A stretch of DNA of 64,000 bases, from NCBI GenBank assembly GCA_012729535.1, contig JAAYCY010000028.1, forward strand, positions 1 through 64,000, read 5' to 3'. Numbering within the stretch: the stretch's first letter is position 1; every line of letters begins with the position of its first letter. Positions 42,210 through 50,350 of the stretch are shown one piece after another. The position numbers and the translations under genes are program-made. The notes under the pieces are model-generated. The model was given only the letters and a program-made list of their open reading frames with translations, was not told where the DNA came from and searched no databases. This DNA comes from Methanomicrobiales archaeon. GTDB lineage: Archaea > Halobacteriota > Methanomicrobia > Methanomicrobiales > Methanospirillaceae.

Positions 42210-42396
42210 AATTCTTGACCAGAAATTTCGGAACAGATTTATTCAAATACTGAAGAATTGCCCTTAAAATGGAAACCTGATAATTATACTCAACAGCATA
42301 GATCTCCAGACCATTCAAACATCATGATGGAAATGACCTTTATGAAATGATAGCTTTATCGGGATAGTATGTAAAGTTCAATACAGGAGGAATCGT

Positions 42397-43110
42397 ATGG
42401 AAGATGTTATCAGAACGAAAATCGATTACCCCAAAGTAGCAAATACGATCAAAGAACTTCTAAACCTGGATGGTTCACCAGTAGCAGTCAAATTCATTAA
42501 GAGTGAGGATCACCTTCCCGATGGCGTGAAAAATATCGGGGAAACGATACAACATTGCCAGATGGTAAACCGGGCACGGAGAGACGGAGCAATATTCTAT
42601 GCGACAAAGGATAACCATGCCTGTATGGGAGGAGCTTATGCACTCGGCCTTCGTGAGATTACTCCTACTTTAAAGTCAGGAGAATTTTATTATAAATTAG
42701 GGAAATATGATAGTTGGCCTTCCTGTAAACGGACAATAGACAGGATTCCTCACCTGGAATCCGGAACTACGTATGCAACTGCATATGCTCCACTCGAAAA
42801 AACTCCTTTTGATCCCACCATTGTCCTTATTGTCTCTACCCCAAAAGTAATGTTAAAACTGGCACAGAGTAGCCTGTATCACCTTGGAGGCAGAATAAAC
42901 AGCAATTTTGCAGGAATTCAATCAGTGTGTGCTGATGCTTCTGCCCAGGTATACCTGAGTGGCACTGTCAACTTCTCATTAGGGTGTGATGGTTCCAGGA
43001 AATTCTCCGGAATACAGGAGGGTGAAATGGTAATGGGAATACCTGCTGAAATGTTGCCACAAATAATCGAAGCCTTACCTGTCGTTGTCGGGGCTCCAGG
43101 ATCATCCTGA
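42397..43110 (+). CDS. DUF169 family protein
   Basis: 237 residues matching the DUF169 layout. SPVAVKFIKSEDHLP lies near the N terminus, CQMVNRARRDGAIFY in the first third, and CMGGAYALGL a little later. CADASAQVYLSGTVNFSLGCDGSR is the distal conserved stretch. The conserved cysteines suggest a metal or cofactor site. These proteins are common in methanogens and anaerobes, with no known reaction. An excellent ribosome-binding site, CAGGAGG, lies 6 bases ahead of the ATG. It is monocistronic, with a T-rich tract straight after the stop. Confidence 0.88.
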   Translation: MEDVIRTKIDYPKVANTIKELLNLDGSPVAVKFIKSEDHLPDGVKNIGETIQHCQMVNRARRDGAIFYATKDNHACMGGAYALGLREITPTLKSGEFYYKLGKYDSWPSCKRTIDRIPHLESGTTYATAYAPLEKTPFDPTIVLIVSTPKVMLKLAQSSLYHLGGRINSNFAGIQSVCADASAQVYLSGTVNFSLGCDGSRKFSGIQEGEMVMGIPAEMLPQIIEALPVVVGAPGSS

Positions 43111-47825: not shown

Positions 47826-49277
47826 ATGACTGAAACAGGATTGGAATCAGAAAATATAAAACCAATTTCCATTCTTTTTGTTGATGATGAACCTGAGATT
47901 CTCAACATAACAAAGATATTTCTGGAAGAAACAGGTGATTTTGTTGTGGATACCATCACCTCTGCAGTAGATGCACTTAAATCCTCTCCCATTCAGTCTT
48001 ATGATGCCATTGTTTCGGATTATCTAATGCCAGACATGGATGGAATTGCCTTTCTGAAAATAATCAGAGAAGAGTATGGTTATATCCCATTTATTCTATT
48101 CATCGGCCATGGTTGCGAAGAAATAGTGATAGAGGCAATAAACAACGGTGCTGACTTTTACCTGCAAAAAAGCGGAACATCCAAATCTCCTTTTGCTGAA
48201 CTCGCATACCGGATTAAACAAGCAGTTAAGAAAAAACGTGCGGAAGAAAAACTTCGGAAAAGCGAAGAAAAGTTTCGTTCATTTGTTGAGAATGCCAATG
48301 AAATAGTTTTTTCCTTAAATCCTGACGGAACATTTTCTTATATTTCTCCTAACTGTTTTAGTATACTTGGTCATAATCCAATTGAGATTATTGGAAAATC
48401 TTCTAAAATTTTTATTCATCCAGATGATCTGCAGGAAAACTTGAAAGTATTCAATATGGCCATAAAAAATGGTGAAAGTGCTACGGGAGTAGAATACCGG
48501 ATACAACATAAAAATGGAAACTATAGGTGGCATTCCCAGAGTATTGTCCCTGTTCGCGACATTAACGGAAATATTGTCGGAGTTCAGGGAATATGCCATG
48601 ATATTACCGGTAGAAAAAAGATTGAAGCTGCTCTTCGGAAAGCAAACCGTCAACTTAACCTCCTAACCAGCATCACCAGGCATGATATCCTAAACAAAAT
48701 TACCACGATATATGGATATCTTGAGATTGCTGAAATGGAAGTCAAAAACCATCAAATCTCAGAATACCTGCAGAAAATGAAAGAAACAACCAAAGAGATT
48801 CAGTCACAGATAGAATTTACCAGCATATATGAAAACCTGGGAGTACAAGAACCCCAATGGATTACCCTTGAAACAGCATTACCCCACTTATCAATCCCAA
48901 GTTCTGTATCCATAATCGCCGAAGTAAAGAATATTGATATTTTTGCTGATCCAATGCTCGAAAAGGTTTTTTTTAATCTTTTTGATAACTCTTTGAGACA
49001 TGGAAAAAATGTTTCAACTATCAGGATTACCACTCACCAGTCTGGTGATAACCTGGTGATTATTTGGGAAGATAATGGCATTGGGGTATCTGATGAAGAA
49101 AAAGATAATATTTTTGAACCGGGTATTGGAGCGAATACCGGATTTGGAATGTTCCTGGTCAGGGAAATTTTATTATTAACAGGAATCAGGATCCGGGAAA
49201 CCGGTGTATATGGGAAGGGAGCCAGGTTTGAAATTATGGTTCCAAAAGCAGGTTGGAAATATGCGCAAAATCAGTAA
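47826..49277 (+). CDS. REC-PAS-histidine kinase
   Basis: 483 residues. The receiver (about 12-135) keeps the DD acidic pair (FVDDEPEIL), phospho-Asp (DAIVSDYLMPDMDG) and lysine (FYLQKSG). Its conserved threonine is replaced by isoleucine (FILFIGHG). One PAS/PAC segment follows (about 150-275). A methanogen-type H-box comes next (SITRHDILNKITTI), then HATPase_c motifs FFNLFDNSLRHG, EDNGIGV and GFGMFLVREI. Cytoplasmic. Its promoter is shared with the larger kinase on the other strand. Confidence 0.91.
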   Translation: MTETGLESENIKPISILFVDDEPEILNITKIFLEETGDFVVDTITSAVDALKSSPIQSYDAIVSDYLMPDMDGIAFLKIIREEYGYIPFILFIGHGCEEIVIEAINNGADFYLQKSGTSKSPFAELAYRIKQAVKKKRAEEKLRKSEEKFRSFVENANEIVFSLNPDGTFSYISPNCFSILGHNPIEIIGKSSKIFIHPDDLQENLKVFNMAIKNGESATGVEYRIQHKNGNYRWHSQSIVPVRDINGNIVGVQGICHDITGRKKIEAALRKANRQLNLLTSITRHDILNKITTIYGYLEIAEMEVKNHQISEYLQKMKETTKEIQSQIEFTSIYENLGVQEPQWITLETALPHLSIPSSVSIIAEVKNIDIFADPMLEKVFFNLFDNSLRHGKNVSTIRITTHQSGDNLVIIWEDNGIGVSDEEKDNIFEPGIGANTGFGMFLVREILLLTGIRIRETGVYGKGARFEIMVPKAGWKYAQNQ

Positions 49278-49367: not shown

Positions 49368-49697
49368 TTATGCGGTTTTTTCCGCGGCCATTTCAACATC
49401 TTCTTCCTTAATGGTCTTTCGACCAGCATGAGATGCGAGTTTATTTGCCTCTTTTACCAGTTTGCTTAGGTAATCTTCTGCCATTGTTACCAAAGCTGCC
49501 GCCCCATCGCTTCCCACTCGTTCTGCTCCACTAGCTTTTGCAATCCGAACCACTGCAGCTGTTGGCAAATCTTTTGTTTTGACAGCTGACTCCTGTTTAA
49601 CATGAGTGGTCGTTTTTGAAGCTGTTTGCTTTGCTTTCACAGCCGATTTTCCCGGTTTCTTTGTTGACGCATGTTTTGGCACCGATTTTGCTACCAT
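49368..49697 (-). CDS. Archaeal histone with lysine-rich N-terminal tail
   Basis: 109 residues. The last 67 form a standard archaeal histone fold: LPTAAVVRIAKASGAERVG (helix 1, loop 1), the long central helix LVTMAEDYLSKLVKEANKLA, and loop 2 with GRKTIKEEDVEMA. The first 42 residues are a disordered-looking tail with 11 lysines plus Ser, Thr, Ala and Pro, including KAKQTASKTTTH. Most archaeal histones start at MxELPxA and have no tail. The ATG at 49697 is preceded by TTGGGGGA at 4-5 bases; no good start exists at the core boundary, so the tail appears to be translated. Confidence 0.92.
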   Translation of the reverse strand: MVAKSVPKHASTKKPGKSAVKAKQTASKTTTHVKQESAVKTKDLPTAAVVRIAKASGAERVGSDGAAALVTMAEDYLSKLVKEANKLASHAGRKTIKEEDVEMAAEKTA

Positions 49698-49797
49698 TTT
49701 TCCCCCAATATCTCATGATGTGCTACACATGGTCATGGAAAGCAGCATTAACACAAAAGTTATGACAGGTTTCTTCTCCATTAACACCATCATGATC

Positions 49798-49806
49798 CTT
49801 TTATAA
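49798..49806 (-). promoter_or_regulatory. TATA-box candidate for the histone gene
   Basis: On the minus strand the sequence reads TATTATAAAAGG. If used, transcription would begin near 49775, leaving a leader of about 75 bases before the histone ATG. That is long for an archaeal message and contains the GGGGGA ribosome-binding site. Confidence 0.4.
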
Positions 49807-49906
49807 TATGAATAAGAGGTTTAAAAATTTTATGGTGAATTCATTATTAATTTGAGACGATAGAAATAGTTAGGTAAATTTTCAGAAATAAACGTAACAT
49901 CTGGAG

Positions 49907-50350
49907 TTATTTCAGATTTTTACCACAACCATCATGATGCAAGAACCTTCTGATTACATCAAGAAGAATACCTGGTTCAGATGGTTTAATAATATATTCA
50001 TCAGCACCAATAGAGAATCCATAATCTATGTGTCTCTTTTCAGTATAAGATGCAGTATAGAAAATTAAAGGAATATGAGAGGTTTTTGGATCACCTTTTA
50101 TTGCTTTACAGATATCATACCCATCCTGTCCGGGCATCAGAATATCAGTTACAATCACATCAATCGTTTCATTATTTATAATATTCAGCGCTTCTTCACC
50201 ATCTTTAACTAGAATTACCCGGTATCCGTTTCCAGTAAGTAATTTTTCCAGATAATAACGGTTTTCATACCGGTCATCTGCAACCAGGATTGTTATACCT
50301 GTGGTTTCTATATTTTTTTCATTTTGTGATGAACAATCAACCGTATTCAT
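49907..50350 (-). CDS. Stand-alone response regulator receiver protein
   Basis: 147 residues, a single CheY-like receiver with no output domain. The acidic pair is VADDRYENR (a D-D-R variant), phospho-Asp lies in VIVTDILMPGQDGYD, the switch threonine in IFYTAS and the lysine in YIIKPSEPG. About 20 residues precede the domain. It is probably a phosphotransfer partner of the PAS kinases nearby, though not adjacent to either. The gene lies 209 bp upstream of the histone gene, in the same orientation. Confidence 0.9.
   Translation of the reverse strand: MNTVDCSSQNEKNIETTGITILVADDRYENRYYLEKLLTGNGYRVILVKDGEEALNIINNETIDVIVTDILMPGQDGYDICKAIKGDPKTSHIPLIFYTASYTEKRHIDYGFSIGADEYIIKPSEPGILLDVIRRFLHHDGCGKNLK

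Follow-up and report, generated by a model that had tools for sequence, protein, structure and literature searches.

The locus considered here raises the question of whether a histone gene in a methane-making archaeon (genus Methanospirillum, order Methanomicrobiales) encodes a genuine N-terminal tail and, if so, what such a tail might do. The gene lies in a 64,000-nucleotide stretch of DNA, analysed as a whole and here called the window, at 49368..49697 on the minus strand, and its product is predicted to have 109 residues: residues 1-42 (49572..49697, minus strand) form a Lys/Ser/Thr/Ala-rich, Arg-free tail, MVAKSVPKHASTKKPGKSAVKAKQTASKTTTHVKQESAVKTK, and residues 43-109 (49371..49571, minus strand) a histone-fold core. 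A sequence-only reading of this DNA, which had guessed the order correctly, had described an archaeal histone with a 42-residue lysine-rich tail; the reading frame, coordinates, strand and length all proved correct, and four orthologs share both the tail and its start. Its count of 11 lysines amid many Ser, Thr, Ala and Pro residues also agrees with ours (11 Lys, 0 Arg, 5 Ser, 6 Thr, 6 Ala, 2 Pro and 1 Glu; net charge +10).

The core had been called that of a normal archaeal histone, and this is borne out by a match to the Pfam family CBFD_NFYB_HMF (PF00808) of 46 bits, above the cut-off of 21.4, and by matches to HMfA and HMfB (E 6e-13 for HMfA). The HMfB DNA-contact and dimer-dimer residues that we examined are all kept (R10, R19, L46, H49, R52, K53, T54 and D59), including each of the seven that we tested by role: R10, R19, K53 and T54 for DNA contact, and L46, H49 and D59 for the dimer-dimer interface. 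An AlphaFold2 model derived from a five-row alignment leaves the tail disordered, with a pLDDT of about 45-51 for residues 1-40, and folds the core into three helices only, at residues 44-55, 63-90 and 98-108. As the nearest solved structures Foldseek retrieved HMfB (TM by target 0.83) and HMfA (0.81), at E values slightly over 0.001, the score being presumably depressed by the disordered tail. The window histone is like the HMfA/HMfB-type nucleosomal histones in fold, Pfam family, and DNA-contact and dimer-dimer residues; it differs from them in its 42-residue N-terminal tail, in a promoter of its own with paired TCATGA sites (see below) and in an A24 to G replacement.

Is the tail real protein? 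The ribosome-binding site that had been judged well placed is a GGGGG stretch at 49702..49706 (minus strand), which lies 4 nt ahead of the ATG (GGGGG-AAAA) and has G-rich counterparts at the same spot in the orthologs; the only other in-frame starts within the tail are GTG codons at residues 6 and 20. Among 12 genomes of the genus we found four full orthologs, so that the gene is present in 5/12: they belong to M. stamsii Pt1 (G011; 68-69% identical to the window protein), Methanospirillum sp. OWC_0038 (G007) and two further genomes, G004 and G010. The ortholog tails start at the same place, are 32-41 residues long and Lys-rich, and carry a net charge of +8 to +13. Each of the five tailed histones has 9-13 tail lysines and no stops; five of these lysines (window positions 13, 17, 21, 28 and 34) are invariant in the five-way alignment, as is a VK pair. 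Synonymous sites in the tail are saturated, and non-synonymous sites are constrained: pS is 0.68 and pN 0.22 between the window tail and that of M. stamsii, the corresponding values for G004 and G010 are 0.69 and 0.19, and pN is below pS in all ten tail pairs (pN 0.19-0.50, pS 0.55-0.87). Furthermore, the indels between species are whole codons. From this codon constraint we infer translation, and conclude that the tail is, by its sequence, real protein; the same constraint, together with the conserved leader, leads us to reject a mis-called start. With an N-terminal extension that exceeds 20 residues and is predicted to be translated, disordered and basic, the window protein fits the description of a tailed archaeal histone. 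The tail, which was to be sought in related genomes, is conserved in the four orthologs, within a length range and with a lysine pattern, and this strengthens the tailed-histone claim. The tails evolve faster than the cores and are far looser in sequence, so that composition, not motif, may be what matters.

In a tree restricted to the core (65 columns), the tailed proteins of all five species group together (support 91/88), with a single origin in 94% of bootstrap trees; with so short a core, this support is no more than fair. A tree of a single marker gene (window 52632-51733) splits the genus into two groups (100/100), and tailed species fall in both: the window species and M. stamsii in one, G004 and G010 in the other. 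OWC_0038 is absent from the marker tree, its marker being interrupted by a contig end; that marker is about 59% identical to the window copy, from which OWC_0038 looks nearer to the second group. Across this basal split most pairs of tails align better than shuffles do (p 0.005-0.044 for the window species or M. stamsii against G004 or G010). The M. hungatei clade yielded no tailed gene, whether in G001 (which we take to be M. hungatei JF-1), G003 and G005 or in the less complete G006 and G009. Synteny around the gene is confined to G004 and G010, with a partial overlap to OWC_0038. Our screen of the order covered 232 genomes from 40 genera, 220 of them outside the genus, and could recognise only tails resembling that of the window protein; among the matches listed, none outside the genus gave a stop-free tail alignment. 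A viral origin was also considered and rejected, IMG/VR having yielded no relative. At the level of sequence, then, the tail is constrained, the tailed proteins make up one clade that spans the basal split, and M. hungatei and its close kin are without the gene. Bearing in mind that span, the simplest reading is a single gain at or before the last common ancestor of the genus, and later loss in the M. hungatei clade; lateral transfer may offer an alternative history.

The tailed protein is one of many histones in its genome. We count 11 PF00808 loci (L001-L008, L017-L019) in 3.1 Mb, about ten of which are ordinary and tail-less; the paralogs that we inspected start beside the core, as do nearly all other histones seen in the genus. 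This number exceeds the seven of Methanosphaera stadtmanae, which were termed unusually many (PMC7776873). Some copies may be strain variants within the assembly, since those on contigs C15 and C51 are near-identical (C15:7-165 sits at a contig end). We also noted that the core of one paralog, L017 (G000:C81), ends abnormally after GRKTLKAGDIED and continues into an unrelated C-terminal stretch; it is perhaps a frameshifted copy.

The region upstream of the tailed gene has an order that is conserved in all five species: a TATA-like element, TCATGATG, the leader, a second TCATGA site, a G-rich stretch and the ATG. On the minus strand of the window, the putative promoter element TATAAAA, conserved in the upstream alignment, is at 49799..49805, and a second TATA-like candidate, AATTTTTAAA, is apparent from the sequence at 49820-49829. 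The promoter-proximal site TCATGATG (49788..49795) abuts the TATA-like element and is invariant in the five species; of the start-proximal site CATCATGA (49713..49720), the TCATGA core is invariant. Measured from their outer ends, the two sites cover 75-83 bp in 5/5 species. Such a pair is missing upstream of eight of the nine tail-less histone genes examined in the same genome; the exception, on C41 (L005), has two TCATGA occurrences in a different arrangement. The conserved leader with its two sites suggests that the tailed gene is separately regulated. An RNA hairpin joining the two sites is disfavoured, as no fold clearly beats shuffles (z -1.6 to +0.8), and a putative protein-bound operator pair is the better guess. 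We do not claim a genome-wide regulon: there are six such spaced pairs in the genome, two of which are the one palindromic histone site read on both strands. Elsewhere in the window, a perfect palindrome with the core of the histone site, CATCATGATG, occurs at 42320-42329, with a DUF169 gene (42397-43110) starting about 70 bp downstream.

In the window, a PAS/receiver histidine-kinase gene (47826-49277, plus strand) is convergent with the histone gene, and a response-regulator gene (49907-50350, minus strand) lies upstream in the same orientation. G004 and G010 likewise have a related kinase (about 45% over 285-292 aa) beside the tailed histone. In G004, and by synteny in G010, a ClpB-type chaperone gene immediately precedes the tailed histone gene in the same orientation (L073 2692-5283; L074 6248-8860); this adjacency, which is absent from the window, is a hint of stress-linked expression.

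What might such a protein do? The explanation that we consider probable is that it is a specialised minor paralog under its own regulation, whose tail, conserved, disordered and cationic, would bind DNA and alter compaction wherever the protein is incorporated. The core would dimerise, either with itself or with one of the roughly ten tail-less paralogs, and the dimer would wrap DNA as HMfB does. The tail, with its charge of +8 to +13, would project from the wrapped DNA and, acting in cis or in trans, attach to nearby DNA by electrostatic attraction, so that the dosage of the variant would tune compaction and bridging in certain regions or in certain conditions. In its favour are the occurrence of the gene in 5/12 genomes, the constraint on the tails and their alignability across the basal split, the single clade of tailed cores, the modelled disordered tail on a folded HMfB-like core that keeps its DNA-contact residues, and the conserved promoter with its paired sites. 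The absence of the gene from the M. hungatei clade, by which it is dispensable on an evolutionary scale, counts against this explanation, as do the looser sequence of the tail relative to the core, the restriction of synteny to close relatives and the altered dimer-dimer residues of G004 and G010.

One alternative, which we regard as unlikely, is that the tail mainly sets assembly by disfavouring homodimers or stacking, so that the variant serves as a cap or as a heterodimer partner in mixed hypernucleosomes. The coexistence of the variant with about ten tail-less paralogs is in keeping with this proposal, and a bias in dimer choice has been suggested for histone tails in a review (PMC10919886). 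In addition, two dimer-dimer residues are altered in G004 and G010 (loci L022 and L023), H49 to Glu or Asp and L46 to Phe or Ile; judging from the known HMfB structure, polymerisation there should weaken, and the tailed histone of these two genomes may be a capping variant that does not polymerise as HMfB does. On the other hand, the window protein and that of OWC_0038 keep all three of L46, H49 and D59, and the one change in M. stamsii is L46M.

Improbable, in our estimation, is a role for the tail as a signalling platform, on which general archaeal enzymes would acetylate or methylate lysines, altering DNA contact or recruiting readers. A Lys-rich disordered tail with Ser and Thr residues would suit such a role, and an HDAC-family (PF00850) protein is encoded in 11 of the 12 genus genomes. 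These proteins, however, occur with or without a tailed histone, and in many prokaryotes besides. Three members of the M. hungatei clade (G001, G003 and G006) encode an additional HDAC-family protein, for which the tailed species gave no counterpart. No SET-domain protein was detected in the 12 genomes by a search that matched its positive control, Methanosarcina acetivorans, and searches for YEATS domains and bromodomains, both run without a positive control, were likewise empty. Nor, beyond scattered lysines, does the tail contain a strictly conserved motif. Lysine modification is possible, and it is compatible with, though unnecessary for, the DNA-binding explanation that we favour. It is a long shot that the genus has evolved an independent tail-based chromatin control, in which a separately regulated variant would be exchanged into hypernucleosomes conditionally and its lysines reversibly acetylated by general enzymes.

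We think it very improbable that the tail is a mere by-product, in which translation from an upstream start codon turned an A+T-rich leader into a cationic extension of no selective consequence. This route of tail gain has been proposed by reviewers (PMC10919886), and the faster evolution of tails relative to cores could be taken in its favour. Against it stand the non-synonymous constraint in all pairs and the persistence of the tail across the genus split. Moreover, when the leaders of tail-less histones are read in frame they contain, for every 40 codons, a mean of 2.4 Lys and 2.2 stops and bear no resemblance to the tails, from which we reject leader read-through as a sufficient explanation. 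It may be the origin of the tail, not its present state.

The sequence-only reading had further likened the tail to that of eukaryotic histone H3, possibly by convergence. The match on which this was based does exist: KQTASKTT, at residues 23-30 of the window tail, is identical to KQTARKST of H3 at 6/8 positions. It is limited to the window species, and KQTASKTT itself occurs in 0/4 orthologs. Shuffles of the window tail reach 6/8 with p about 0.02 for H3 alone and about 0.08 over four core-histone tails; the best match in the four orthologs is no higher than 4/8, a level that nearly every shuffle attains (p > 0.98). Alignments of whole tails to H3 score at shuffle level (p 0.38-0.90), and in some species H2A and H2B match as well as or better than H3 (the eukaryotic tails used here were typed from textbook knowledge). 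The wider H3 motif, ARTKQTARKS, is matched partially in one species and is absent from the four orthologs. The archaeal tails have 0-1 Arg and 0-1 Gly each, as against 5 and 4 in the H3 tail, and no alpha-N helix precedes the core in the five-row-alignment model (tail pLDDT about 45-51). The tail shares with H3 a basic, disordered character in front of a generic histone fold; it differs in having no significant similarity, no Arg, no conserved KQTARKS and no modelled helix before the core. Shuffles and orthologs together refute the likeness as a conserved feature, and the claim of an H3-like tail falls: on these comparisons the resemblance is chance plus shared composition. Homology to the H3 tail, or functional convergence on it in sequence, is extremely improbable, given one 6/8 match in a single species set against the orthologs, the shuffle-level scores, the scarcity of Arg and Gly, and core structures nearest to HMfB and HMfA.

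N-terminal histone tails are known from Asgard archaea, Huberarchaea and Bathyarchaeota (PMC6136690; PMC11390915; PMC10919886). The window protein resembles these in its disordered Lys-rich tail on an archaeal core (PMC6136690, PMC10919886), but the lineages are distant and the likeness is one of tail character, with no shared tail sequence claimed; the Heimdall LC_3 tail, for example, has an R17-R19 triplet, whereas Methanospirillum tails are almost Arg-free. Mycobacterial HupB and Leptospira histones, compared via PMC10919886 only, also have Lys-rich, low-complexity tails that presumably bind DNA electrostatically; the HupB core is unrelated and the Leptospira histones differ in dimer geometry. 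A 2026 survey places tails in a select few archaea, mainly Asgards (PMC13260811), and a 2026 review describes methanogen histones as being without such extensions (PMC12993045). Our literature search found nothing linking Methanospirillum with histone N-terminal tails. A 2022 study that surveyed archaeal histones by proteomics (Grau-Bove et al.) may reportedly have included M. stamsii. As far as this search shows, a genus-conserved tailed histone paralog in a methanogen is new.

The tailed histone is a clear exception to the rule that methanogen histones are without tails (PMC12993045), and it extends across a genus with cultured members. Discussion of tailed archaeal histones has so far centred almost exclusively on Asgards, a group known mostly through metagenomes; the present histone provides a cultured, non-Asgard case, and an instance of a Lys-rich tail whose origin was most likely independent of the eukaryotic ones. 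Furthermore, M. stamsii has the tailed histone and M. hungatei JF-1 is without it, so that natural tailed and tail-less relatives are at hand; what a tail adds to an archaeal nucleosome, and why tails come and go, become testable.
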